Shown piece after piece: positions 1-53,656 of a DNA stretch of 64,000 bases. The stretch comes from Clostridium mediterraneense. Lineage in GTDB: Bacteria > Bacillota > Clostridia > Clostridiales > Clostridiaceae. Positions within the stretch are counted from its first letter, which is position 1. Each line of letters opens with the position of its first letter. Location: the NCBI RefSeq assembly GCF_900091705.1, contig NZ_LT594785.1, forward strand, positions 2,128,550-2,192,549, written 5' to 3'. The notes beneath the pieces are model-generated. The model did not search any database, was not told the DNA's origin, and was given only the letters and a program-made list of their open reading frames with translations. The position numbers and the translations under genes were made by a program.

Positions 1-3000
1 CTAGCCATGTGATAAACAATATTCATATTATTAGCTACATAATACTTAGGTAATTGATTAATATTAGTTTTCACTCCATTAACTGTTACATAATCTATAT
101 GATAATTTTCTAAAGTAGGTATGCTTTCATTATTAATAGAATCACCAATATTACCTGTTTCTGTGTAATTATATTTATCTCCTGTAACTGCTTTTCCATC
201 TGAATAAACTGTACTTACATTAAGAGTAGTATTCTCTAAAGAACTATCAAGACTATCTCCTAAATATACAAGTCCTCTTGGAGTTAATTCAAATACACTA
301 GTTTTATTTACATCATAAGAATTTTGTAAAACTCCATCTTTATATACATATGAAGCACTTATTTTAGAACTTGTTTTATAATCTATAACTATTTTATCTC
401 CATATTTAAATCCTAAATTATTAAATGCATTATATATTTCAGTTTTTGGCCATTCTCCACCATCTAGTATTAAAGTCTTAATTGGCTTATTATTTTTATC
501 ATATAATCCTATACCAAATGCTTCACCATGAACATATGCACTAATCCTTGACCAACCCTCTTTAACATTAATTTTCATGTCTCCACTGTTAAATTCTAAT
601 GTTCCTAATGCATTTCCCCAATAATTATTTATAGTAATTTTAGAATTATTTAAAGGTGTAGCCCCTTCTTGAAGCTCTTCTTGTGGCATTGAATTTATAA
701 GATCTTGAGCTATCGGCTTTTGATTATCATTAGTAACCTTAGTTAAAGCTTCCTTTATTGAGTTAACATACTTATTATACTGTGCTGATGTACCATCATT
801 TAAAATAATATTTTTAATTTGTAATAATACATCATACATAGGCATTGGATAATCTTTGAATATACTTATAATTTGCTCACTAAGATCAATATAATCTTGT
901 GCTGTTAAGTTATGATTTGTTTTCATTAAAGCAATTTTATCAAGCCATGCTCTTACATTTAAAGGTTCTATTTTTATAGCTTCATTTATTGCATTCATTT
1001 TATCTTGATATGATATATCAGAATTTGCAAGCCATAAATATTCACTAGATTTCTTTAAAAGCTGAGGATTAATATTTTGATATAATAAATCATAATTTGC
1101 AGTATTTGGATTTGTGGATATTCCTTTAGACCATCCACTAATATCTCCACCATATGTTTTAGACCATCCATAAATATTATTTCCTATATTCCATTTATGA
1201 TCATTATTATAGAATACAAAAACTTCATGTTGACCTGCATCTTGTATTACATGTTGAGCTGGAATACCAAATACCTGACAGGCTGATGCTCCTAAAATAG
1301 ATATTGAATAACAAACTCCTCCATCATACCAGACATCTGCTAGATTAGGATGTGGACCATAAAAATCTGAATTATCAAAAACACTTTGACCTGTATGTGG
1401 GTTATTTTCTTCATAAACTATTGTATATGCTATATTATTTAATCCATTTGCACCTGAATTTATAAATGCATTATGATTTTGCATTATTATAGATCTTAAC
1501 TCCATTATCTGAGAGTTAGATATATTAGTATTTACAACATATTCTATCTCTCTAATACCTAGAGTCTTAAATATAGGTAGCATTCCACCTTCTGCATTTA
1601 AAGTTTCAAATATATTATATCTTTCAACAGGACTTCCTACAGTTACTGTATCTCCATATCCATAATAATGTGTACTTGGCCAAGCCATGATAGGAGTTGC
1701 ATTACTTATAGCTGTCGCTACAGCTAACTTTAAATTAAATCCTGATCTTGAATTAGTATACTTATTCCATATATCAGACCAAATTTGTAATCCATTTATA
1801 TTTATTGTTGGATTTATACCTTCTAAATATTCTTGCATAGCAGTATTATTATTTAAGACCCAATTTATAAATTCTTTATTTGCTTCACTCTTATTAAAGA
1901 AAGTTTCTAAATTATTTAGTCCAATTCTTGTTATAAATTCTCTCGTAGTAATTTCATAATTTAATTTACTATTACTCATAGTATTACTATTTATATTAGA
2001 ATTTACTTGTGATTGAATATCAGAATTTAAGGTATTAAGATAACTTGCTATATCACCTGAATTATTTATAGTAATTACAGGCTCTGTAGCTCTAGCTATT
2101 GATAAAGTATTATTTGTATTTGCCTCTAATAAATACTTAGAATTACTTGGAGTATTTGATGCTACTTGTATTGGGAATAATTTATTATTTATATCTAAAG
2201 CAAATGTATAAGTTTCATCCTTATTTAATTTATCTAAAGCTGATTCTGGTATTATACCTTGTACACTTAAAGAATTATTATCTGACATACTTGTATTTAC
2301 TGAATCTACAACTTGATTGCTTGAATTTAAAATAACTAATTTTTTATTACCGTTTAATATACTTTCACTTTGTCCATCTGCTAAATTACTATCTATAACT
2401 AAATTATTATTATTCCATGTAATATTACTTGTATAAGCATTTTGTCCAAAGTTAACTCTTACAAGACCTTCTTTTGTTATTTTAAAGTATTCTTCTTCAC
2501 CACTTATATTTCCTAAAATTGTATTTCCATTTAAAATAGCTGGTTTAGAAATTGTATTATTATAACTTAGTCCTATTATATCTCCATAGTTAAATGATTT
2601 ACCATTTATAGCTTCCGTAACATCTAATGTTACTCCGTTATTTATTGAAGTATTAAATAGCTTTTCTCCATTACTATTATATAAATCAAAGTTGAAGTAA
2701 TGAGATTTTCCATTACCGAAACTATCGGTATAATTATTTACAACAAATTTCATAGTTTCTGGATCAAATCCTATACTTGATGATATTTGACCATAACTAC
2801 CTTTAGAGTTATAAAAGTTTATATAACTATTTTGTAACGCTATATTTGATTCCATTGTTGGATTAATATGTGTTGGTATATATCCTTCTGATGATACTAC
2901 TATATTTGTATTACTTGTAAATCCATCTTTATCACTTATAGCAATATTAAAATTACCATCCGCATCAGTCATTCCTTTAAATATATTTCCATCAACAGAA

Positions 3001-9642: not shown

Positions 9643-10497
9643 TTATTTTTTTGTATAATAAGCTATCCCAACACTTCCTGGCCCAACATGAAGTCCTACT
9701 ATTGGACCTATATCCATTATAGGAGAGTCTAAACCTAGTTCATTTTTAAGTCTTTCTTTTAATTGAACTCCTTCATCTCTATTTAATATATGATAAACAA
9801 CAGTTTCTCCAAGACCTCTCTCATTCATTTTTTCTGCAATATTTTCTATCATCTTTGTTACAGCTTTTTTATGAGTTCTAACCTTTTCTAAAAGCTCAAC
9901 TTCTCCATCATTTACATGTAAAAGAGGTGTTATTTGTAATATTCCACCTATAAGAGCTGATGCTGCACCTATTCTTCCACCTTTTCTAAGATAAGTTAAA
10001 GTTCCAGGCACAAAAATTATATCTGATCTTTTAACCATATTTTCTGCATCTTCTTTCAGCTCTTTTAAAGTTTTCTTACCTTCAATTGCAGCTTTAGCAG
10101 CTTCTACAACAGCAAATCCCATGCTCATTGTTGTATTAAGTGAATCAACAAGTTCTATCTTAGCTTCTGGATATTCTTTAAGTACCATTTCTTTTATAAG
10201 ATGTGATGTTGAATATGTTCCACTAAGCTTAGATGATAAAAATATACCTAAAACTTCATGTCCATCTTTAACAGCATCTATAAAAGCTGACTTAAATTCT
10301 TCAACTGTTGGCTGTGATGAAGTAGGAATAGTATCAGATTTTGCTAATCTATTATAAAAATCTACTTGATTTACATCAACTTCTCTTTCAGCCTCACCAT
10401 CAAATATTACATTTAATGATATAACTTTAATATCGTACTTCTTTATATACTCTTCTGGAATGTAACTCGTACTATCTGTAATTACTTTAATTGACAT
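9643..10497 (-). CDS. DegV family fatty-acid-binding protein
   Basis: A 284-residue member of the DegV family, whose characterised relatives (FakB) bind a fatty acid for the kinase FakA. The N-terminal VITDSTSYIPEEYIKKYDI, TSQPTVEEF, and the central LTYLRKGGRIGAASALIGGILQITPLL are diagnostic. There is no DAK-kinase partner nearby. It begins 33 bp after the tyrA stop with no obvious terminator between, so it may be the last gene of the aromatic operon; a metabolic link to aromatic synthesis is not evident. Confidence 0.9.
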   Translation of the reverse strand: MSIKVITDSTSYIPEEYIKKYDIKVISLNVIFDGEAEREVDVNQVDFYNRLAKSDTIPTSSQPTVEEFKSAFIDAVKDGHEVLGIFLSSKLSGTYSTSHLIKEMVLKEYPEAKIELVDSLNTTMSMGFAVVEAAKAAIEGKKTLKELKEDAENMVKRSDIIFVPGTLTYLRKGGRIGAASALIGGILQITPLLHVNDGEVELLEKVRTHKKAVTKMIENIAEKMNERGLGETVVYHILNRDEGVQLKERLKNELGLDSPIMDIGPIVGLHVGPGSVGIAYYTKK

Positions 10498-10530: not shown

Positions 10531-11373
10531 TTAAAGCTTCTTTCGTTTCTCTGAAGAATTAACAAATATTTTTTTAAGTTCCTTTTCATCTTGATTTTTT
10601 ATACCTATTTTTATTTTATTAAATTCTTTCTCAAAACTTTCCATTTTAGAAATTAAATTTTCTTTATTATTGATAAAAAGTTCAGACCATAAATCTTCAT
10701 TTATATTTGCTATTCTTGTTATCTCTTTGTATGAGTCACCTATGAAGGAACCTGTTTCTACCCCTAAATTATCACTATTGACTAAAGCTACTGCTATAGC
10801 ATGTGGTAATTGACTAGTAAATGCTATAATTTCATCATGTTCCATTATACTTGTTTCAACTATATTGGTAAATCCCATTTTTTTTGCAAGGAATTTAACC
10901 GCCTCTATATTCTTTACTTTATTCTCATCCCTAGTTGTTATTATAAAGTTAGCACCTATAAAAACTTTTCTAGATGCATATTCAATACCTCTTTTTTCTC
11001 TACCAGCCATTGGATGAACTAAAATAAAGTCAATATTTTTAGGTATATCTATTTCTTTTACTATACTACCTTTTATTCCAGATGTATCTATTATAGTTAC
11101 TCCAGATTTAAAAGTATCTCTATATTTATCTATAAAATTTTTTATATCCTTTGGATAAATACTTAAAAATATAATATCTGAGTTTTCTATAATATCAGTA
11201 GAAGCTTCACTTCCATCTATAGCTCCCTCTTCTATAATATTAAGCTCCTTAGCTTTATCTAAAGTCTTATTATTAATATCTATCCCCTTAATTTTAGCAC
11301 CATATATTTTTCCTCTTAAACTAAGACCTATAGAGCCACCAATTACTCCAAGTCCCACAATTGTTATATTCAC
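10531..11373 (-). CDS. tyrA: Prephenate dehydrogenase
   Basis: A 280-residue enzyme that oxidatively decarboxylates prephenate to 4-hydroxyphenylpyruvate for tyrosine. The N terminus has the nucleotide-binding GLGVIGGSIGLSLR. Substrate-site motifs HPMAGREKRGIEYA and TSQLPHAIAVAL are present. It has no fused chorismate mutase and no obvious C-terminal ACT domain, so feedback control may rest on other enzymes and on the leader. It is the last dedicated gene of the operon, 25 bp after aroQ. Confidence 0.93.
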   Translation of the reverse strand: MNITIVGLGVIGGSIGLSLRGKIYGAKIKGIDINNKTLDKAKELNIIEEGAIDGSEASTDIIENSDIIFLSIYPKDIKNFIDKYRDTFKSGVTIIDTSGIKGSIVKEIDIPKNIDFILVHPMAGREKRGIEYASRKVFIGANFIITTRDENKVKNIEAVKFLAKKMGFTNIVETSIMEHDEIIAFTSQLPHAIAVALVNSDNLGVETGSFIGDSYKEITRIANINEDLWSELFINNKENLISKMESFEKEFNKIKIGIKNQDEKELKKIFVNSSEKRKKL

Positions 11374-11398
11374 CTAAACATCCCCTCATAAAGTCTTA

Positions 11399-11839
11399 TT
11401 AATTATTACTCTTATAATTTTCTAACGCTCTTATACCTAAAATATACCCAAAATCACCAAAGCCTGAAATCTGACCTATACAAGCTGGTGCTGTAACCGA
11501 CTTATGTCTAAATTCTTCTCTTTTATATATATTACTTAAATGAACTTCTACAGTTGGAATTTCTACTCCTTTTAAAGCATCATAAATTGCTATACTATAA
11601 TGAGTAAAAGCTCCTGGGTTTATTATTATGCCATCAAATCCATCAAAATAAGCTGAATGAATTTCATTAATAATTTCACCCTCTATATTACTTTGAAAAG
11701 CTACTATTTCATGAGATAATTTTTTTCCCTCTTCTATTATATTAGAAATAATATCATCAAAATTCTTTTTTCCATATATATTTTTTTCTCTAATTCCTAA
11801 AAGATTTAAATTAGGACCATTTATAAGTTTAATTTTCAT
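11399..11839 (-). CDS. aroQ: 3-dehydroquinate dehydratase, type II
   Basis: A 146-residue cytoplasmic dodecamer-type enzyme converting 3-dehydroquinate to 3-dehydroshikimate. INGPNLNLLGIREKNIYG carries the catalytic Arg/Tyr loop; FQSNIEGEIINEIH, INPGAFTHYSIAI and VEVHLSNIYKREEFRHKS with the catalytic His are intact. It lies 21 bp after aroK. Type I AroD is not present in the window. Confidence 0.95.
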   Translation of the reverse strand: MKIKLINGPNLNLLGIREKNIYGKKNFDDIISNIIEEGKKLSHEIVAFQSNIEGEIINEIHSAYFDGFDGIIINPGAFTHYSIAIYDALKGVEIPTVEVHLSNIYKREEFRHKSVTAPACIGQISGFGDFGYILGIRALENYKSNN

Positions 11840-11860
11840 TATATCACCCTAAAAATTTTT

Positions 11861-12361
11861 TTAAGCTAAATACTCTTTAGTTTTGAGTATTATATCCTTA
11901 GCAACATCTTCAATACTTCCATCATTAATTACTTCAATATCAAGATATTTATTATAAAGATCTATTCTTTCTCTATAAAGATTAATTACTCTTTCTTTTC
12001 CATCTTTTAAAAGAGGTCTTGAATCTACATCTATATCATCTAAAATAAGTTCTAATGGTCTATTTATAAAAACTACTACAAAGTCTTTATAATAAGCCAT
12101 ATTTTCTTCTTTTTTAACTACTCCTCCACCAGTTGAAATAACAACATTATCAAATCTTGATAATACTTCACAAGTTTTTGTTTCAAAAGCTCTAAATAAA
12201 TCCTCACCTTGATTAAAAATCTCTTTAATACTTTTTTTAGAGCTTCTTTCTATAAATTCATCCATATCAACAAATTTAAAATTTAGCTTTTCTGAAATAT
12301 ATCTTCCTATTGTTGTTTTTCCCGCTCCTGGCATTCCTATTAAAACAATACCTTTCTTCAT
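11861..12361 (-). CDS. aroK: Shikimate kinase
   Basis: A 166-residue P-loop kinase phosphorylating shikimate at the 3-hydroxyl. The Walker A GMPGAGKTTIG is at residues 9-19, the shikimate-binding FVDMDEFIE follows, then the STGGGVV motif and the lid Arg in DSRPLL. Length is standard. It starts 14 bp after the aroE stop, in the same transcription unit. Confidence 0.95.
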   Translation of the reverse strand: MKKGIVLIGMPGAGKTTIGRYISEKLNFKFVDMDEFIERSSKKSIKEIFNQGEDLFRAFETKTCEVLSRFDNVVISTGGGVVKKEENMAYYKDFVVVFINRPLELILDDIDVDSRPLLKDGKERVINLYRERIDLYNKYLDIEVINDGSIEDVAKDIILKTKEYLA

Positions 12362-12375
12362 AAAACCTCTCTTAT

Positions 12376-13194
12376 CTAAATAAACTTTTCTCTTAATTTT
12401 TCATAAATATCAATTTCTATTTTTTTATCTACTTTAAAGTCATTCCAAATTTCTTCAGCTTTCATAGCTTGAGCAACAAGCATATATAAGCCGGTAACTG
12501 TTTTTAATCCTTTTTCCTTAGCTTCTCTTAAGAATCTAGTTTCTTCAGGATTATATACAATATCACAAGCTACTTCAAAATTTTCAAATATACTTTTATC
12601 TATAGCTGTTGTTTCAATACTTGGATACATTCCACAAGGAGTTGTATTTATAACTGCATATGCTTTTTCTATATTTTCAAGCTCATCATAATTTATAAAA
12701 TCTATATCATTATTATTAAACTTTTCTTTAGCTAACTCCTTATCTCTTGATACTAAAACTACTTTACTAGCCCTAGCATCTAAAAGACAATAAACTATAG
12801 CTTTTGAAGCTCCACCTGAACCTAAAACATAAAAAACTTTATCCTCAATTTCAACATTATCCTTTAAAAGCATTTCCTTAAAACCATAATAATCCGTATT
12901 ATAACCATAACTTTTATTATCTTTTATAAAAATAGTATTTATAGCTCCTATTTTCTTTGCTTCATCAGAAATATAGTCAAGTTGTGGAATAATCTCTTCC
13001 TTATATGGAATAGTAACATTAGCTCCCTTTATTCCTAAAGTCTTTAAAGACTCAACAGCATTTTTTATATTTTCTCTTTTTATAGAAAACAGATTATATT
13101 TCCCATCGATATTTACTTTTTCAAATAAACTCTCATGTATTTCTGGAGAAAGGCTATGACCTAGCTTTTCTCCTATAAGTCCAAATAACTCCAT
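12376..13194 (-). CDS. aroE: Shikimate dehydrogenase (NADP)
   Basis: A 272-residue reductase of 3-dehydroshikimate. The substrate-binding GEKLGHSLSPEIH, catalytic Lys in GANVTIPYKEEI, GAINTIF, YGYNTDYYGF and nucleotide motif GSGGASKAI are all intact. Length is normal. It sits between pheA and aroK. Confidence 0.95.
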   Translation of the reverse strand: MELFGLIGEKLGHSLSPEIHESLFEKVNIDGKYNLFSIKRENIKNAVESLKTLGIKGANVTIPYKEEIIPQLDYISDEAKKIGAINTIFIKDNKSYGYNTDYYGFKEMLLKDNVEIEDKVFYVLGSGGASKAIVYCLLDARASKVVLVSRDKELAKEKFNNNDIDFINYDELENIEKAYAVINTTPCGMYPSIETTAIDKSIFENFEVACDIVYNPEETRFLREAKEKGLKTVTGLYMLVAQAMKAEEIWNDFKVDKKIEIDIYEKLREKFI

Positions 13195-13214
13195 ATTAAA
13201 TCACCTAAGCTTTC

Positions 13215-14330
13215 TTATTCGTATCTTTTATAAGCACCAAGTATTCTAAACTCTATACTTGATTTATTTATCTGTTCTAAAGCTTTTTTAACTTCTAAAT
13301 CTTCAATATTTCCATCAACATCTATATAAAAATAATAATTAAATGAACCATTTCCAACAGGTCTTGATTCTATCTTCCTCATATTTATATTATTATCTGA
13401 AAATGCTTTAAGCTCATTCCATAGAGTTCCTGCTTTATTATCAAGATTAAAAGCAAAGGTTAACTTATTACAAAGTTCTGTTGTTTCAAGATTTTTTCCT
13501 ATAATTACAAATCTTGTATAATTTTCTTTTTCATTATTTATGCTTTTTCTTAAAATATCTAATCCATAAATTTTAGCTGCTCTTTCACTAGCTATTGCAG
13601 CTTTTGTCCTATCATTTTCCTCACTTACATATCTAGCACTTATAGCTGTATTATAATATGGTATCATTTTTGCCTTATTTAAAGATTTTAAATATTCACT
13701 ACTTTGCTCGAACCCTTGAATATGTGAATAAACTTCTTCTATTTCATCTATTTTTGTTCCACTTACTCCAATTAGATTATGTTCTACTTTAACTAAAGTT
13801 TCACCTACAATATTAAAATTATACTTTTTAAGTAAATCATAAACATCTGTAATAGAGCCTGTTGAAGAATTTTCTATAGGCAAAATTCCATAATCAACTT
13901 CATTAAATTTTAAGGCTTGAAAAACATCTTCAAACTTATCATAATTTTGTCTTTTATAATCTTCTCCAAAATAATTTATAAGAGCTTCTTCTCCAAATGA
14001 ACCAGGTACTCCTTGGTAGGCAACCTTTATTTCTTTTCCTTTTCCCAAAGCTGCCTCTCTTTGCCCTATATTTTCAGCTTGATACTCCTTACTTATATCC
14101 ATAAGGCTATGAAGCATTTTTTCTGTATATGCCTTTAACTCTGGAGTCTTTACTCTTGCCACATTTTTTTCAATAACTTCATCTTCTCTTTGCTTATTAA
14201 ATATAGGTAAATTATTTACTTTCTTATATCTTGCAACATCTAAAACTATATTCATTCTTTCTTCAAAAAGTTCTATAAGCTTTTTATCTATCTCATCAAT
14301 TCTTTTTCTACAATAGTCTAGATCTTTCAT
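13215..14330 (-). CDS. pheA: Bifunctional chorismate mutase / prephenate dehydratase
   Basis: A 371-residue fusion for phenylalanine synthesis: an AroQ-type chorismate mutase at residues 1-85, a prephenate dehydratase from about 108 (VAYQGVPGSFGEEA, YGILPIENSSTGSI) to about 285, and a C-terminal ACT domain (about 290-365). In the ACT domain the ESRP motif is intact (IESRPVG), but the usual GALV motif appears as AGTLW, which could change Phe sensing. Both chorismate mutase for the Phe branch and prephenate for TyrA come from this operon. The start follows a short A/T-rich gap after aroC. Confidence 0.95.
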   Translation of the reverse strand: MKDLDYCRKRIDEIDKKLIELFEERMNIVLDVARYKKVNNLPIFNKQREDEVIEKNVARVKTPELKAYTEKMLHSLMDISKEYQAENIGQREAALGKGKEIKVAYQGVPGSFGEEALINYFGEDYKRQNYDKFEDVFQALKFNEVDYGILPIENSSTGSITDVYDLLKKYNFNIVGETLVKVEHNLIGVSGTKIDEIEEVYSHIQGFEQSSEYLKSLNKAKMIPYYNTAISARYVSEENDRTKAAIASERAAKIYGLDILRKSINNEKENYTRFVIIGKNLETTELCNKLTFAFNLDNKAGTLWNELKAFSDNNINMRKIESRPVGNGSFNYYFYIDVDGNIEDLEVKKALEQINKSSIEFRILGAYKRYE

Positions 14331-14382
14331 ATACCTCTATCTCCTTTTTACACTCTATACCCCCTAAACCTCGTAGCCAAAT

Positions 14383-15462
14383 TTATTTTTCCATTAAAGC
14401 ATCTAAAACTGCAATTGCTGAAATAGTTTCTATTACAACTAAAGCTCTTTGAACTATACAAGGATCATGTCTACCATGTATTTGTATAATCTCATTTTGC
14501 ATTGTTTCTATATTTACAGTTCTTTGATCCCTACTAATAGATGCTGTTGGCTTTATAGCAACTCTATGAATAATAGGCATTCCATTGCTTATTCCACCTG
14601 TTATTCCACCATTATTATTTGAATAAGTTTTTATCTTTCCATCCTCAATATAATACTCATCATTAGCCTGTGAACCTTTCATCTTAGTTATATTAAAGCC
14701 CTTTCCAAACTCTATTCCCTTAACTGCTGGTACTGAAAATGCAAGACTTGCTATTCTACTTTCTAATGAATCAAAAAATGGGTCACCAACTCCTGCTTCA
14801 AGTCCTATTATTGCAGTTTCTATAACTCCACCAACTGAATCTAAATTATTTTTTGCTTCTAAGATTTTATTTTTCATATCTTCAATCTTTGAATTATCTA
14901 AAACTGGTAGTTCTTTTTCAAGTAAAGATTCTAAAATTTCTTTATTTATTGAAATATCATCAAAAAATTCATCCTCTATATCAGCTATTGCTTTAATATG
15001 AGCTCCAACTTTAATTCCTTTTGATAAAAGAATTTGTTTTGCCATAGCTCCAACAAATACTAAAGGTGCTGTAATTCTTCCTGAAAAATGTCCACCACCT
15101 CGATAATCATTAAATCCCTTATATTTAACAAAGCCAGGATAATCTGAATGTCCTGGTCTCATTAAATCTTTAGTTCTTGAATAATCTTTAGAACGTGTAT
15201 CCGCATTTTCTATCATCATTGATATAGGAGCTCCTGTTGTTTTTCCTTCAAATATTCCTGAAAGAATTACAGGTTTATCAGCTTCTTTTCTAGTTGTTGA
15301 TAATCTGTTTCTACCTGGTGCTCTTCTTTCCATTTCTTTTTCTATTGCTTGCATATCAATTTCTATGCCTGGTTCTATCCCATTTACAACTACGCCTATT
15401 GCTTTTCCATGTGATTCACCAAAAATAGATATTTCTAAATTATTCCCCCATGTTCCACTCAT
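14383..15462 (-). CDS. aroC: Chorismate synthase
   Basis: About 359 residues, FMN-dependent, converting EPSP to chorismate. The start is ATG 15462 (MSGTWGNN) because AGGAGG lies eight bases upstream; the GTG three codons earlier is inside that spacing. Motifs GESHGKAIGVVVNG, RRAPGRNRLSTTRKE, RPGHSDYPGF, RGGGHFSGR and GRHDPC are intact. The 5' end overlaps the 3' end of aroA by 23 bp, indicating coupled translation. Confidence 0.95.
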   Translation of the reverse strand: MSGTWGNNLEISIFGESHGKAIGVVVNGIEPGIEIDMQAIEKEMERRAPGRNRLSTTRKEADKPVILSGIFEGKTTGAPISMMIENADTRSKDYSRTKDLMRPGHSDYPGFVKYKGFNDYRGGGHFSGRITAPLVFVGAMAKQILLSKGIKVGAHIKAIADIEDEFFDDISINKEILESLLEKELPVLDNSKIEDMKNKILEAKNNLDSVGGVIETAIIGLEAGVGDPFFDSLESRIASLAFSVPAVKGIEFGKGFNITKMKGSQANDEYYIEDGKIKTYSNNNGGITGGISNGMPIIHRVAIKPTASISRDQRTVNIETMQNEIIQIHGRHDPCIVQRALVVIETISAIAVLDALMEK

Positions 15463-16732
15463 TAAATTCACCTCCTAGTGATTTAAAATCCTGCCAAAAT
15501 CCTGGATATGATTTTGATACACATGCAGGATTCTTTAAAATAACTTCTTCCTTACAAACTGTTGAAGCAATAGCTAGACTCATAGCTATCCTATGGTCAT
15601 CATGACTAAATACTTCTCCACCTTTTAAGCTCTTAACTCCATTTATAATAAGCCCATCTTCAAGTTCTATTATATTAGCTCCAAGTTTATTAAGTTCTGT
15701 TGTAATAGCATTTAATCTATCACATTCCTTAATTCTAAGTCTTCCCGCATTAATAATTTTTGTTTGACCTTCTGCAACTGAAGCAACTACTGTAAGTATT
15801 GGTATTATATCTGGACAAGAAGATCCATCTATTACTGTTGATTTAAGACCACAATTAAACACTGTAAGTCCCTTATTTTCAATAAATAATCTTCCGTTCA
15901 TATTTTCTAATATTTTTATAACTTCCTTATCTCCTTGTAGTGAATCTAAGTCTAGATTCTTTGATATAACATCATTCTTAAGTATTGAAGCTGCTAAATA
16001 AAATGCACCTTGAGAATAATCTCCTTCAACATCATAATCAAATGGTTCATACTTTTGATTACCTTTAATTACAAATTCTTTATAATTATGATTTATAATA
16101 TCTATCCCAAATCTCTCTAGCATTGATAAAGTTAAATCGATATATCCCTTTGATTCAAGTTCTGTACTTATTATTATTTTTGAATCTGTATCAAGTAAAG
16201 GTAATGTAAACATTAATCCTGTAATAAATTGAGAACTAATATTTCCTGGAATTGTAAATTCGTCACCATTAAGCTTGCCTTCTATTTCTAAATTTAAAAC
16301 TCCCTCTTCATATTTATATTCTATTCCTTGCTTATCAAATATATTGTAATAAATATCTAGAGGTCTCTTTCCTAAATTACCTCTACCTATAAATTTTATT
16401 TTATTTTGCTTTGCAATAGATATTGGAACTAAAAATCTAAGAGTTGAACCTGATTCATTACAATCTATAGTCTTAATCTCATTAGAATTTTCTTTAAAAA
16501 CTCCTCTTCCATCTATAATAAAGCTCTTATCATCTTTTTGTTCTATCTTAGCCCCAAGTGATTTCATAGCTTGCATTGTAGCTATAATATCATCTGATAA
16601 ATCTATATTTCCTATAGTGCTTACCCCATCTGCTAAGGCAGCACATATCACAGCTCTATGAGCCATACTTTTTGATGGAGGAACTATAACTTCACCGCTC
16701 AATTTTCTAGGACTTATTTTTATCTTAGTCAT
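15440..16732 (-). CDS. aroA: 3-phosphoshikimate 1-carboxyvinyltransferase (EPSP synthase)
   Basis: A 430-residue enzyme adding enolpyruvate from PEP to shikimate-3-phosphate. Motifs visible: PPSKSMAHRAV, NESGSTLRFL, GRGNLGKRPL, GNISSQFITGL, DYSQGAFYL, RLRIKECDRL and HDDHRIAMSLAIA. Full length with intact N and C termini. It starts about 12 bp after aroB ends and overlaps aroC at its 3' end. Confidence 0.95.
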   Translation of the reverse strand: MTKIKISPRKLSGEVIVPPSKSMAHRAVICAALADGVSTIGNIDLSDDIIATMQAMKSLGAKIEQKDDKSFIIDGRGVFKENSNEIKTIDCNESGSTLRFLVPISIAKQNKIKFIGRGNLGKRPLDIYYNIFDKQGIEYKYEEGVLNLEIEGKLNGDEFTIPGNISSQFITGLMFTLPLLDTDSKIIISTELESKGYIDLTLSMLERFGIDIINHNYKEFVIKGNQKYEPFDYDVEGDYSQGAFYLAASILKNDVISKNLDLDSLQGDKEVIKILENMNGRLFIENKGLTVFNCGLKSTVIDGSSCPDIIPILTVVASVAEGQTKIINAGRLRIKECDRLNAITTELNKLGANIIELEDGLIINGVKSLKGGEVFSHDDHRIAMSLAIASTVCKEEVILKNPACVSKSYPGFWQDFKSLGGEFNEWNMGE

Positions 16733-16743
16733 AATAATACCTC

Positions 16744-17793
16744 CTACTCAAAAAATTTATAATCAGTCTTATATATAAAACTTTCTCCTATATCTTTTAA
16801 TAAAATTACATTTAAATTATCATTAATATTCTTCTTATCAAGTCTTATTGCTTCAATAAGCTTATTATTTTCAACATCCGCACTAACTGGCAGATTATAT
16901 TTTTCTAAAATACTCTTTATTTTAAGAGCTACTCCTTTATTAGTAAGTCCTATATTTTCACTAATAAGAGATATTTGATACATTCCTATCCCAACTGCTT
17001 CACCGTGACTAAAAGTTTCATAATTATAGAAATTCTCAATAGCATGACCTAAAGTATGACCAAAGTTTAAAAGCATTCTTTCACCTTTATCTTTTTCATC
17101 ATTTTCTACAACCTGTCTTTTTATATCACAGCAAGTAAATATAATTTCATCTATATTTTCTTTAAGTTCTTTTTTATCTCTAAAGGATTCTAATTTACTA
17201 AATAAATCTTTATCCTTAATAAGTCCATATTTTATAACTTCACCTAATCCATCATTAAAATATTTCTCTTCAAGAGTATTTAAAATATCAGTATCTATTA
17301 AAACTCTCTTTGGATGATAGAAACTTCCAACAAGATTTTTTCCTCTATCTAAATCTACAGCAACTTTTCCACCTACACTTGAGTCAACTTGTGCTAAAAG
17401 TGATGTTGGAATTTGAATAAAATCAATACCTCTTAAAAATGTTGATGCTACAAAACCAGCAAGGTCTCCAACAACTCCACCACCAAAAGCTATAATCAAG
17501 TCACTTCTTGTTAATCTAAAATCTAAAAGCTCATTATATATAGGAAGGAGTGAAGAAAAGTTTTTACTTTTCTCCCCTGCCTTAATAGCAATAAATTTTA
17601 CTTCATAATTTGCAAGCTCTAATTGCTCCTTTAATTCATTGCAGTAAATAGCTTCTATATTAGTATCAGTTATAACAACTATTCTATTTCCAGCAAAAAC
17701 TTCTTTTATATATTTTGAAAAATCTTTTCTAAGATTTTTCTTAATTAAAATATCATATTCCTTTCCTGGTATAGAAACTCTTAAACTTCTCAT
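16744..17793 (-). CDS. aroB: 3-dehydroquinate synthase
   Basis: A 349-residue NAD-dependent, metal-requiring enzyme cyclising DAHP to 3-dehydroquinate. Visible motifs: [31 protein letters not shown], the metal ligands in [22 protein letters not shown] and [11 protein letters not shown]. Its ATG overlaps the aroF stop by one base (TAATG), so translation of the two genes is coupled. Confidence 0.95.
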
Positions 17794-18806
17794 TATATTT
17801 CTCTTCCTACTGCTTTAGCTATTACTCTAAGTTCTTCAATAAGCTTTTCGTATTCTGATGGTTTTATTGATTGTTGTCCATCACATAAAGCATTGGCTGG
17901 ATCATTGTGAACTTCTATTATAAGTCCATCAGCTCCTACTGCTACAGCAGCCTTTGATAATGGGTCAACCATCCATGCTTTACCTGCAGCATGACTTGGG
18001 TCTACTATTACTGGTAAGTGACTAAGCTTTTTAATTGCTGGAATAGCACTTAAATCTAAAGTATTTCTTGTGTAAGTTTCAAAAGTTCTAATTCCTCTTT
18101 CACAAAGTATAACTCTTTCATTTCCTCCAGCCATTATATATTCAGCTGACATTAAAAGTTCTTCTATTGTTGCTGATAAACCTCTCTTTAATAAAATAGG
18201 CTTATCTGTTTTTCCAAGCTCTTTTAATAAGTCAAAGTTTTGCATATTTCTTGCTCCAACTTGGATAACATCAACATCATCAACAAACTTATCAATCATA
18301 CTTGTTGACATTATTTCAGTAACTATTGGAAGTCCTGTTTCTTTTCTTGCAAGCTTTAAAAGTTCTAAACCTTCTGCTTCAAGTCCTTGGAAGCTATAAG
18401 GTGAAGTTCTTGGCTTAAATGCACCACCTCTTAAGAATCCAGCTCCTATTTCTTTTACTGCTTTAGCTATTCCTGTTACTTGTTCTGCACTTTCAACTGA
18501 GCAAGGTCCAGCTATTAAAGCAAGTTTCTTTCCACCAATTTCTCTCCCACTAATATTGAATATTGAGTTTTCTGGGTGGAATAATCTATTTGCCTTTTTA
18601 TAAGGCTCTTGAACGCTCATTATCTTTTCTACATTTTTATTTGCTTCAATTTTTGATGGATCTACTTTACTTGTATCTCCTATAATTCCTAATATATTTT
18701 TTTCTTGACCATTTATCATTTGTACGTCTACTCCTAAACTGTGAATTTTATCTATTAATTTCTTTACCTCTTGTTCTGGTGTTTTTTGTTTTAAAATTAC
18801 TATCAT
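17793..18806 (-). CDS. aroF: 3-deoxy-7-phosphoheptulonate synthase (DAHP synthase)
   Basis: A 337-residue type I-beta DAHP synthase, first step of the shikimate pathway (PEP plus erythrose-4-phosphate). Residues 1-75 form the ferredoxin-like regulatory domain found in Thermotoga-type enzymes, which is known to bind Tyr or Phe. The catalytic barrel shows IAGPCSVES with metal ligand Cys102, [29 protein letters not shown] and VDPSHAAGK. It is the first enzyme gene of the operon, about 120 nt downstream of the attenuator hairpin. Confidence 0.96.
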
Positions 18807-18928: not shown

Positions 18929-18962
18929 AAAAAAAATAAGACTCTCTCTAATGAGTCTTATT
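18929..18962 (-). terminator. Attenuator terminator upstream of aroF
   Basis: Minus-strand hairpin with arms 18953-18962 and 18935-18944 (AATAAGACTC and complement), an 8-base loop, and a run of eight U at 18936-18929. It lies between the leader peptide stop and aroF, so it must be read through for operon expression. Confidence 0.88.
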
Positions 18963-19026
18963 TTAAAACAATATGCCCGTTTTGCCAATATTAATATAGA
19001 GTCAATTATATTTATCCCCTCATTAG
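18948..19026 (-). promoter_or_regulatory. Antiterminator pairing segments of the aromatic attenuator
   Basis: The leader-peptide tail contains CTAATGAG (19019-19026 on the minus strand), perfectly complementary to CTCATTAG (18948-18955), which is the end of the terminator's first arm plus its loop. Pairing these eight bases removes part of the first terminator arm. A ribosome that reaches the leader stop codon (19012-19014) would cover 19019-19026 and let the terminator form. A ribosome stalled on the earlier Phe/Tyr cluster leaves it free. A second segment, GACTCT at 18998-19003, could also pair with AGAGTC in the terminator's last arm. Confidence 0.72.
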
Positions 19027-19140
19027 GTAAAATTTATTTATTTTTTTATAACAAAATAGAGCCATGCTAAAGTAAAAGCTTAGGCTATAATAAAAGCTAT
19101 AAAAATATCCTACAAAATTTTTACCTATTTGATTAAACAT
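19012..19140 (-). CDS. Phe/Tyr-rich leader peptide of the aromatic operon
   Basis: A 42-codon ORF with an ideal ribosome site (AGGAGG, five bases before ATG 19140). The peptide starts MFNQIGKNFVGYFYSFYYSL and has 8 Phe and 7 Tyr among 42 residues, with no Trp; the run at residues 12-24 is especially dense. This matches the products of the operon it precedes (Phe via pheA, Tyr via tyrA). The stop is followed by a terminator and the antiterminator pairing. The peptide is probably not functional itself; its translation senses charged Phe and Tyr tRNA. Too short for ordinary gene finders. Confidence 0.88.
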   Translation of the reverse strand: MFNQIGKNFVGYFYSFYYSLSFYFSMALFCYKKINKFYLMRG

Positions 19141-19182
19141 AATTGCCTCCTAAATTTCTAATTAATTCCAATTTTAGTTTTT

Positions 19183-19210
19183 ATTATACTCTTGTTCAAA
19201 TTAAAGTCAA
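19183..19210 (-). promoter_or_regulatory. Sigma-A promoter of the aromatic operon
   Basis: Minus-strand TTGACT (19205-19210), 16 bp spacer, TATAAT (19183-19188). Transcription would start near 19176, about 25 nt before the leader ribosome site. It is divergent from the leuS promoter, with about 120 bp between the two -35 boxes. Confidence 0.82.
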
Positions 19211-19357: not shown

Positions 19358-19382
19358 TTTCTATATCAATAATTAATATAAA

Positions 19383-19606
19383 AAAAGCTTTGATTAGGAG
19401 TAGTAGTATTCACTTGTAGCCTTTAGAGAGCTGTGGTTTGCTGTAACACAGTGGTACAAAAATATGAACTTACCTATGAGCTTATGTGCAAAACACATAG
19501 GGTTGCACCCTTATAGCATTTGAGTGAGAAAATATTTTTTATTTTCTAATAAGAGTGGTACCGCGATTCCCTTCGTCTCTTAGTTGAGATGAGGGGCTTT
19601 TTTTAT
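19383..19606 (+). ncRNA. Leucine T-box leader of leuS
   Basis: The T-box sequence AAGAGTGGTACCGCG is at 19551-19565; its TGGT matches a tRNA ending ACCA, as tRNA-Leu does. A terminator follows with arms 19569-19579 and 19586-19596 and a T-run. Upstream, AGAGAGCTGTGGTTTGCTG (19424-19442) begins stem I, and the specifier loop GAACTTACC places CTT (Leu) at 19469-19471. Uncharged tRNA-Leu is expected to favour the antiterminator and allow leuS transcription. Confidence 0.93.
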
Positions 19607-19664: not shown

Positions 19665-22115
19665 ATGGGAAACTACAATACATCCATTGATAAGAAATGG
19701 CAAGATAAATGGGAAGAAACTGGTCTATATAAATTTGATACAAATAGTGATAAAGAAAAACTTTATGTTTTAGAAATGTTCTCTTACCCTTCAGGAAGTC
19801 AATTACACGCAGGACATTGGTTTAACTATGGACCTGTTGATTCATGGGCAAGATTAAAAAGAATGCAAGGATACAATGTATTCCAACCAATGGGATTTGA
19901 TGCTTTTGGTCTTCCAGCTGAAAACTTTGCCATTAAAACAGGAATTCACCCAAAAGACTCAACATACAAAAATATTGAAACAATGACAGCTCAACTTAAA
20001 GCTATGGGAGCTATGTTTAACTGGGAAAATACTTTAACTACTTGTTCTGAAGATTACTACAAGTGGACTCAATGGTTATTCCTACAATTATTAAACAAAG
20101 ATCTTGCTTATAGAAAGAAAGCTCCTGTTAACTGGTGCCCTTCATGTCAAACTGTTCTTGCAAATGAACAAGTTCATGATGGTCTATGTGAAAGATGTAG
20201 CACGGAAGTTACTAAAAAAGACCTTACTCAATGGTTCTTTAAAATAACTGAATATGCTGATGAACTTATTGAAAAGCTTGATGGACTTGATTGGCCAGAA
20301 AAAACAGTTGCAATCCAAAAACACTGGATAGGTAAATCAACTGGAGCTGAAGTTACATTTAAAGTTAAAGACTCAGATTTAAGCTTCAATGTATTTACAA
20401 CAAGAGCTGATACTTTATGTGGAGTTAGCTATGTTGTTTTAGCACCTGAAAACCCATTAGTCGATAGTATCACAACTGCTGAACAAAAAGCTGCTGTTGA
20501 AGATTACAAAGAACAAGCTAAAAAACAATCAGATATTGAAAGACAATCAATTTCAAGAGAAAAAACTGGAGTATTCTCTGGATCATATGCTATAAATCCT
20601 ATAACAGGTACAGAAGTTCCTATATGGATAGCAGATTATGTTCTTGCAACTTATGGTACAGGAGCTGTTATGGCTGTTCCAGCTCATGATGAAAGAGATT
20701 ATGCTTTTGCTACAAAGTTCAATCTTCCAATAAAGCAAGTTATAGTTGCTAAAGCTGGTGAAGAAACAGAAGTTCCATTCTTTGAACATGGAGTTCTTGT
20801 AAATTCAGGAGAATTTGATGGCTTAACAACTGCTGAAGCTAAAGTTAAAATAGTTGAAAAACTTGCAAAAGATAATCTTGGAGAAGAAAAAGTAAATTAT
20901 AGATTAAGAGATTGGCTTGTATCAAGACAAAGATATTGGGGAGCACCTATTCCTATAATCTACTGTGATGATTGTGGAACTATTCCAGTACCTGAAAAAG
21001 ATTTACCTGTTAAATTACCTTATGATGTTGAATTTGCACCAGATGGTAAATCACCACTTGCTAAGTCAGAAGAATTTGTAAATACAACTTGTCCTTGTTG
21101 CGGAAAACCAGCTAAGAGAGAAACAGATACTCTTGATACATTTGTTTGTTCATCATGGTATTATTTAAGATATCCAGATAACAAAAATGCTGATAAACCA
21201 TTTGATACAGAATTAATCAATAAAATGTTACCTGTTGATAAATATGTTGGTGGTCCAGAACACGCAGCAATGCACCTTCTTTATGCTAGATTTATAACAA
21301 AAGCTTTAAGAGATATGGGGTACCTAAACTTTGATGAACCATTTAAGTCACTTACTCACCAAGGATTAATTCTTGGACCAGATGGACTTAAAATGAGTAA
21401 ATCAAAAGGAAATACTATTTCTCCAGACCAATATATAAATGAATATGGTGCTGATGTATTTAGAATGTACCTAATGTTTGGTTTTGCTTACACAGAAGGT
21501 GGAGCTTGGAGTGATGAAGGAATTAAGTCAGTTCATAGATTTGTTGAAAAAATTGAAAGAAATCTTGATATAGCAAGAGAAGCTATAAAGAATGGTTCAA
21601 ATAATAAAACAACAATAGATGCTGCTGAAAAAGAACTTAACTTCTGGAGACACAATACAATTAAGTCAGTTGGAATAGATGCAGATAAGCTTCAATTCAA
21701 TACTGCCATAGCTAGAATGATGGAATTCATTAATGCTTTATCAAAGTATACACAACAAAAGGAAATGAACTTAGAGTTATTAAAAGCTACTGTAGAAGAC
21801 TACATTAAATTAATAGCACCATTTGCTCCTCACTTTGCTGAAGAACAATGGAGCCTTCTTGGAAATGAATACTCAGTATTTAACACAGAATGGCCAAAAT
21901 TCGATCCTGCTCTACTTGTTAAAGATGAAGTTGAAATAGCTATACAAGTTAATGGAAAAATAAGAAATAAAATAATGGTAGCTTCAGGACTTGATGAAGA
22001 AGCAATCAAGACTACTGCTCTTGAAGATACAAAAATCAAAGAAGCAACAGCTGGAAAAACTATAGTTAAAGTTATAGTTATTAAGGGAAGACTTGTAAAT
22101 ATAGTTGTAAAATAA
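19665..22115 (+). CDS. leuS: Leucyl-tRNA synthetase
   Basis: An 816-residue class I synthetase. The HIGH-type motif appears as [11 protein letters not shown] near residue 45, the editing domain occupies roughly residues 220-400 ([33 protein letters not shown]), and KMSKS is intact in [13 protein letters not shown]. The zinc-like cysteine sets CPSC...CERC and CPCCGK are present. AGGAGG precedes the ATG. Expression is controlled by the T-box leader immediately upstream. Confidence 0.97.
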
Positions 22116-53454: not shown

Positions 53455-53544
53455 TGTATATACAAAAAATAAAATCATTACTAGTATAATAAAATAACTA
53501 TATCAAATTATAGTTAATCAATAGTTTAATGATTTAAATTAAGT

Positions 53545-53618
53545 AGCTTTCCTACGCTGGTATTAACCATATCAGGTTCAAGGGTTGATAATTCTCTCAG
53601 CCATAAGGCACCCCTAGC
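53545..53618 (-). ncRNA. TPP riboswitch (THI element) of thiT
   Basis: Minus strand shows the conserved core in order: GGGGTGCC, GGCTGAGAGAA, ACCCTTGAACCTGAT, GGTTAATACCAGCGTAGG. All landmarks of the THI element are present with normal spacing. Confidence 0.96.
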
Positions 53619-53656
53619 TAAACTATTAAATTTTAAATAAATAAGACTTTAATTAA

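Follow-up and report, generated by a model that had tools for sequence, protein, structure and literature searches.

A Phe/Tyr-rich leader before the aromatic operon of Clostridium mediterraneense as a probable ribosome-mediated attenuator

How might an operon that makes exactly phenylalanine (Phe) and tyrosine (Tyr) be adjusted to the supply of its own products? The question is raised by a stretch of 64,000 nucleotides from Clostridium mediterraneense (assembly GCF_900091705.1, contig NZ_LT594785.1, positions 2,128,550 to 2,192,549; hereafter the window), in which a short open reading frame (ORF) crowded with Phe and Tyr codons lies upstream of aroF, the first gene of an aromatic operon. Discussion of aromatic amino-acid control in low-G+C Gram-positive bacteria usually centres on T-boxes and DNA-binding proteins. 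It had been proposed from the letters of this DNA alone (hereafter the original prediction) that the ORF belongs to an attenuator sensing Phe and Tyr on behalf of the operon. Comparison with relatives supports this core, and the mechanism that we infer is that the leader very probably acts as a ribosome-mediated transcription attenuator, matching expression of the entire Phe/Tyr operon to how much charged tRNA-Phe and tRNA-Tyr is available.

A leader ORF rich in Phe and Tyr codons before aroF

The leader ORF and the signals for its expression are as follows, in window positions.

19183..19210, minus strand: promoter-like TTGACT-16-TATAAT, 11/12 consensus matches
19146..19151, minus strand: Shine-Dalgarno (SD) sequence AGGAGG of the leader ORF, seen in the sequence
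19012..19140, minus strand: leader ORF of 42 codons, 8 Phe and 7 Tyr and no tryptophan (Trp), seen in the sequence, with similar Phe/Tyr-rich ORFs in relatives

Read from 19140 to 19012, the ORF has the predicted translation MFNQIGKNFVGYFYSFYYSLSFYFSMALFCYKKINKFYLMRG (42 residues, then stop), and re-reading confirmed to the letter the length, SD sequence and codon counts first claimed for it. Thus a short SD-led ORF precedes the operon, and its control codons, 8 Phe and 7 Tyr, match an operon that holds both pheA and tyrA. The promoter-like site at 19210-19183 is by itself weak evidence, because such sites occur in the surrounding kilobase at chance level (9 vs 8.4 expected).

The comparison covered 174 distinct aroF upstream regions, drawn from the window, named GTDB loci, loci of family genomes and 80 of 94 further aroF matches; a locus with only 27 bases upstream (L022) and regions with identical ends were left out (103 of 109 kept, then nine more dropped), and one region (L143) was taken one base off. 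With a filter demanding an ORF led by a loose SD-like motif and at least six Phe/Tyr in 13 residues, a Phe/Tyr-rich ORF was found in 123 of the 174 regions, as against 1.3% of 1740 dinucleotide shuffles and 0/174 antisense regions, and at least nine Phe/Tyr within 13 residues of an SD-led ORF occurred in 0.06% of the 1740 shuffles. The SD motif is strong in 89 of the 123 leaders; three further regions (L089, L141 and L173) bear leaders that the filter missed and stand outside the 123.

By scan, a terminator follows the leader in 119/123 regions, vs 3/38 regions scoring under 4, and among those three L141 is one of the missed leaders and L045 has a T-box. The four leaders without a scanned terminator comprise L080 and L081, whose A/T-rich hairpin with U tail was excluded by the G+C filter, and L179 and L186, which have a larger structure. 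A score under 6 was given to 51 regions. Thirteen of them are extra aroF copies, the best copy of the same genome having the leader, and an Rfam scan of 20 found a T-box directly upstream of the leaderless aroF loci L032 and L045.

Leader (score at least 6) and terminator occur together in 47 of the 77 usable named loci, or in 57 at a score of at least 4, with Clostridium (12/15), Sporomusa (4/4), Pelosinus (5/5) and Acetobacterium (4/4) well represented, together with single records of Acidaminococcus, Alkalibaculum, Alkalibacter and Peptoclostridium and one Fusobacteriaceae metagenome-assembled genome; in Intestinibacter the count is 0/2. Within the same family, 71 of 96 aroF regions carry both. 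The absence of the ORF or of its pairing from close relatives had been named as grounds for giving up the proposal, and both are present there; the expectation that such a leader would be a notable exception in Firmicutes fails, since 71/96 same-family regions qualify and leader-peptide attenuators have already been described in Firmicutes.

Competing RNA structures within and after the leader

From the leader codons towards aroF the RNA can be divided into the following elements.

19112..19127, minus strand: segment 1, 5' arm of the long-range 1:2 stem, leader codons 5-10, from the minimum free energy (MFE) fold, covarying in relatives
19060..19086, minus strand: apical hairpin within the Phe/Tyr codons (AGCC..GCU-loop-AGC..GGCU), from the MFE fold, with compensatory changes in relatives
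19019..19037, minus strand: segment 2, ending in CTAATGAG (19026-19019), partner of either segment 1 or segment 3
18948..18955, minus strand: segment 3, CTCATTAG, end of the 5' arm of the terminator plus loop, a perfect 8-base complement of segment 2
18933..18964, minus strand: intrinsic terminator hairpin (3:4), 12 pairs and U tail, then TTTTACTTTA at 18932-18923

The terminator had been placed between the leader ORF and aroF and does lie there, at 18964-18933, a few bases off the 18929-18962 first given; terminator-like sites in the kilobase, both strands included, number 4 vs 0.1 expected. The perfect complementarity between 19026-19019 and 18955-18948 proved right in position and in all eight bases, and the antiterminator 2:3 that it forms (8 pairs) excludes the terminator. 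Its duplex is estimated at -11.0 kcal/mol with flanks and -7.9 kcal/mol for the bare octamers. Taken by itself, the 8-base match carries less weight, since at least 8 is reached in 23 of 2000 leader-tail shuffles. Overlooked at that stage were the 1:2 stem, which joins the first and last leader codons, and the apical hairpin, both of which covary; the minimum-energy fold of the window indeed pairs early leader codons with late ones. Segment 2 can thus pair in two ways, which gives the classical layout of 1:2, 2:3 and 3:4.

Most terminators have CTCATT in the first arm or loop and variable outer stem pairs, while the leader end carries AATGAG. The motif CTC(A/G)T in the terminator arm or loop with ATG(A/G)G upstream is found in 89/119 loci (a motif pair counted without a shuffle control), and perfect 2:3 stretches of at least 8 in 26% of 119 loci vs 1.3% of shuffles. 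The exact AATGAG:CTCATT lies inside the best pairing stretch in only 59 of 130 loci (scores of at least 4). The original prediction had suggested covariation of the stems as a check, and for 2:3 it is borne out in the nearest relatives, where one position runs through G-C in the window (CTAATGAG:CTCATTAG), G-U in L081 (CTAATGAGT:ATTCATTAG) and A-U in L080 (CTAATGAAT:ATTCATTAG), a compensatory change within the genus. Distant clades follow the same logic with other sequences, as in L035 (ATGAGCGCC with GGCGCTCAT) and L074 (TGCCCTGTT with AACGGGGCG, one G-U). AATGAG falls in all three ORF frames (53, 28 and 9 of 90 loci), which argues that segment 2 is kept as RNA.

For the 1:2 stem, complementarity is specific to the locus, at a mean of -22.6 kcal/mol for matched vs -15.9 kcal/mol for mismatched segments, a difference reached in 0/5000 permutations (119 loci). 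In one ungapped register 72.5% of cells are paired (85 loci; 34 of 119 were omitted, 23 with an alignment gap and 11 without an anchor) vs 66.7 +- 0.7% when permuted and 43-53% when slid, and several pairs occur as GC, AU and UA. An alignment, A1, was made of 46 leaders, namely the window and 45 leaders from a diverse set of 47, itself chosen among 84 candidates, L024 and L144 being left out. Its 28 pairs are 78.6% paired vs 73.7 +- 0.6 in shuffles, with 69 double-change cells vs 34.7, each unequalled in 500 shuffles (0/500), and in cells paired, double-change cells, pair types and covariation score alike the structure beats 500/500 shuffles.

The apical hairpin is present in most leaders as UAGCUGG.GCU(A)-loop-(U)AGC.CUGGUUA or a variant of it, within the Phe/Tyr codons, and its core helix is paired in 90.2% of A1 cells. 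Its pairing is swapped between GGC with AGC (65 of 123 leaders) and GGU with AAC (8), and the folds of Sporomusa and Acetobacterium retain the hairpin by other pairs, the residues changing together with the pairs. A Lys codon after the hairpin (alignment column 70) is AAA in 91/91 Lys cases, within an A-rich run, and looks RNA-kept.

Since the hairpin is written into codons, its conservation is entangled with that of the peptide. Distant taxa share the core S-W-G-(F/Y)n-S-A-G-Y, as would be expected of a functional small hydrophobic peptide, or of an arrest peptide stalling the ribosome by its residues instead of by codon supply. The conserved S, W, G, S, A and G residues, however, encode the arms of the apical hairpin and follow the pairing in the swap just described and in the shifts of Sporomusa and Acetobacterium; Ser in the two main Ser columns is AGC in 68/71 and 92/100 cases; and the carboxy end and length vary. 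A peptide acting as such is accordingly judged very improbable. It had also been suggested that the codons but not the peptide should prove conserved; this failed, as a core resembling FYFSWGYFYFSAGYFFCKK is kept, largely because the apical hairpin is encoded there, and the test is misleading because RNA pairing retains part of the peptide.

The same consideration applies to the Trp codon of most relatives. Sensing of Trp was considered and found unsupported: trpD is present in 56/73 genomes whose leader has Trp vs 9/15 whose leader lacks it (Fisher p 0.20; 88 genomes with a leader), and the codon fits, from the sequences compared, the apical hairpin instead of trpD.

Conserved, covarying structure is equally what a riboswitch would display, whether a T-box or an aptamer formed by the apical hairpin and the 1:2 stem, controlling the terminator with the ORF incidental. 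The T-boxes before the aroF of L032 and L045 show that other RNA sensing of this gene exists, and the modelled ribosome-free fold leaves the terminator free by itself. Coding nevertheless leaves its mark on the loop, where 300 codons have A at the second base in 133 and at the third base in 1, so that the loop Phe/Tyr residues appear coding-constrained. Between the ATG and the end of the cluster, moreover, stops interrupt the other two frames in 120 and 122 of 123 leaders and the ORF frame in none (partly by selection). Nor does the element have any match at curated thresholds among the 4227 Rfam families, leader families included, of which Phe leader is one and Leu/phe leader (RF01743) another; an E-value scan gave two matches, both far short of threshold, STnc240 (27.8 bits vs a threshold of 55) and, on the other strand, Histone3 (13.2 vs 34). 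The T-box model RF00230 finds nothing on the leader in a genome that has 15 T-boxes over the cut-off (16 matches), the nearest being that of leuS. There is thus very little probability left for a riboswitch here.

An RNA model of the leader, R1, was used for searching. In the window's genome its one match at E up to 1 is the leader (150 of 9723 candidates scored). Matches were found in 37 of 59 family genomes, many of which had contributed to R1, and 38 of the 39 matches precede aroF by coordinates, L232 being the exception. Under strict filters, matches occur in at least 14 of 398 phylum genomes, where eight candidates per genome were scored, so that the counts are lower bounds and many were missed; of 13 loci outside the family, 12 lie before an ORF read as aroF from its amino end and one (L231) before an ACT-domain gene. 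This placement, together with the retention of mutually exclusive pairings in relatives, speaks against a terminator that merely ends an unrelated small transcript while aroF has its own promoter and no leader regulation. A promoter-like site at 18988-18960 does overlap the terminator, such sites being at chance level, and this account is the least probable of those considered.

Use of the leader before other genes was considered and, among the R1 matches, found to be rare, the exceptions being L231 and L232. In L231 a second leader with terminator (1501-1662, minus strand) stands before the gene of a protein with an ACT-domain pair, and the aroF copy of the same genome lies about 2 kb away. 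In L232 (G004:C6:66500-70000) a near-canonical second leader (522-692, minus strand) precedes a short shikimate-kinase-like, or aroK-like, remnant, and the aroF of that genome also has a leader.

Ribosome position and the proposed choice between terminator and antiterminator

Comparison of sequences shows the ORF with its codons, and three helices that compete for the same bases. From these we infer the stalling, the readthrough, the relative weight of Phe and Tyr and the role of the apical hairpin. An untranslated leader would form a long arch, segment 1 pairing with segment 2 over the apical hairpin; segment 3 would then be free and the terminator 3:4 would form. With ample Phe and Tyr, the ribosome would run through and cover or pass segment 2, with termination again the outcome. 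When either is short, the ribosome would stall in the Phe/Tyr cluster and keep segment 1 off segment 2, which, thus freed (CTAATGAG), would capture segment 3 (CTCATTAG) and let RNA polymerase read into aroF. The apical hairpin may cause a polymerase pause or bring segments 1 and 2 together.

These steps were modelled at the 90 loci with an anchor (29 of 119 without one were omitted), folding only the RNA downstream of the ribosome. With no ribosome, the predicted mean probability P of 1:2 is 0.73 and that of 2:3 is 0.26, and in the window the values are 0.99 and 0.00, consistent with a protective 1:2 helix, itself supported by covariation, that a stalled ribosome would break. When the stall falls on Phe/Tyr codons that stop 20 or more bases short of segment 2, the modelled mean P(2:3) rises to 0.76 over the 90 loci, and in the window a predicted 0.95 or more is obtained for Phe/Tyr codons 9-14 and 24-31. 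In the ribosome-free fold of the window, the SD and start region of the leader (19145-19134) is also paired with 19014-19003 on the minus strand, at and after the leader stop codon; this pairing might restrict translation of the leader while it is free of ribosomes.

Several observations weigh against the attenuator as proposed, or against parts of it. It draws on sequence comparison and a folding model. The shuffle controls leave kinship among the loci in place. The 2:3 sequence is mostly invariant, so that its covariation depends on few loci. In A1, 16 pairs are changed on both sides, which exceeds 498 of 500 shuffles, yet 2/500 reach 16, and so does the structure slid by -1 column. Sensing does not account for all of the codon content, as the conserved Trp codon does not track trpD. 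In the model, stalled P(2:3) is above 0.5 in 71/90 loci and ribosome-free P(2:3) is at least 0.2 in 31/90, so that some loci do not fit it. Within the window, stalls at codons 16-22 give a predicted P(2:3) of 0.18-0.46 and at codon 23 of 0.56, and stalls at Phe37 and Tyr38, the last Phe/Tyr codons, give 0, because a ribosome there covers segment 2. The 0.03 modelled for a ribosome at the stop codon is largely by construction.

Placement of the stop codon so that a finishing ribosome covers the antiterminator segment had also been claimed, and the overlap is found in the window. As a rule of the family it was rejected, since the position is unconserved: with the ribosome on the stop codon, segment 2 is overlapped in only 37/90 loci, a further point against the scheme, and lies behind the ribosome in 50 and ahead of it in 3. 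In those 50 loci the 1:2 stem could form again.

An extension of the scheme would make the apical hairpin a second, independent input, as a programmed polymerase pause synchronising the ribosome or as a binding site, and the coding sequence itself a multi-helix switch in which many codons do both tRNA sensing and RNA folding. This we consider unlikely, if distinctly less so than the rival accounts above.

Known systems, genomic setting and meaning

The attenuators of the trp, phe and his type in enterobacteria consist of a short ORF rich in codons for the product, the helices 1:2, 2:3 and 3:4, and a terminator before the first gene. The clostridial leader resembles them in its product-codon ORF, its three helices and the terminator before aroF. 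It differs in that Phe and Tyr codons stand together over a full shikimate-to-Phe/Tyr operon, that segments 1 and 2 flank the main control-codon run so that the ORF is nearly one hairpin, and that there is an extra conserved apical hairpin and a free stop position.

Related elements have been described. The legend of Fig. 6 in Stav 2019 (PMC6429828), a study with Clostridium novyi among its five genomes, mentions two candidate upstream ORFs (uORFs) that belong to shikimate genes and for which Phe and Tyr are noted. The relevant passages give no gene, genome or mechanism for the two; known from that legend, they may be the present element, and discovery of its existence may therefore not be new. 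In Brewer 2021 (PMC8632094), uORFC-13-1, with at least one Phe codon, lies directly before an intrinsic terminator and the aroF of Acholeplasma, and attenuation is proposed. This is likewise a Phe-containing uORF before a terminator and aroF, differing in that its 24 representatives are from Acholeplasma and environmental sequences only and that the relevant passages mention neither Tyr codons nor 1:2/2:3 competition. Leader-peptide attenuators described in Firmicutes include the Leu-rich ilv leader of Staphylococcus aureus (PMC5794164) and those for His in bacilli (PMC2965389) and in three lineages (PMC9413887), which belong to the same mechanism class and broad group and concern other amino acids and operons. 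The T-box (RF00230), assigned to tyrosine biosynthesis in the Bacillus cereus group in an excerpt of PMC2494555, also controls a terminator and antiterminator by charged tRNA before amino-acid genes, unlike the present leader in having an Rfam family that matches. The gbs2033 element before aroFBC-tyrA of Enterococcus faecium, described as a riboswitch in a passage of PMC4448216, is similar, by description only, as a cis-acting RNA before a Firmicute aroF operon.

In the open-licence literature of PubMed Central, no Phe/Tyr attenuator of a clostridial shikimate operon was found described beyond that legend, and the main text of a 50-genome paper (PMC11109978), as far as it was available, contains neither 'phenylalanine' nor 'tyrosine'. 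To present knowledge, and judging from these searches, the novelty lies in the 1:2/2:3/3:4 anatomy with its covariation, in an apical hairpin embedded in coding sequence, in how widely the leader is spread among taxa, and in the two negative findings, on stop position and on Trp.

The operon comprises two stretches, both on the minus strand.

17793..18806, minus strand: aroF, DAHP synthase, first operon gene (NF006421 over cut-off)
10531..17793, minus strand: aroB, aroA, aroC, pheA, aroE, aroK, aroQ and tyrA

The operon has nine genes, as predicted, in the order aroF-aroB-aroA-aroC-pheA-aroE-aroK-aroQ-tyrA; pheA encodes a chorismate mutase-prephenate dehydratase, and the names aroK and tyrA come from best matches scoring below model cut-offs. 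No trpD over the family cut-off was found in the window's genome (97.9% complete), which fits an operon directed at Phe and Tyr. A DegV/FakB-like gene on the same strand (9643-10497, minus), about 33 bases after tyrA, may be a tenth gene. On the other side, a T-box leader (139 bits, 19381-19583, plus strand) precedes the divergent leuS (19665-22115), so that one intergenic region would hold, back to back, two charged-tRNA sensors of different kinds, if the attenuator is what it appears to be. Elsewhere in the window a thiamine pyrophosphate (TPP) riboswitch (70 bits) lies at 53532-53625 on the minus strand.

In many Clostridia and in some Negativicutes, aroF is preceded by an apparently classical translation-coupled attenuator. 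The coupling of ribosome and polymerase has been questioned for Bacillus; if the proposed mechanism is true, such coupling would be implied on these leaders. The family also offers a natural set of variants for testing how a single leader may sense two amino acids, and its covariance model could give a name to leaders that are as yet unannotated.
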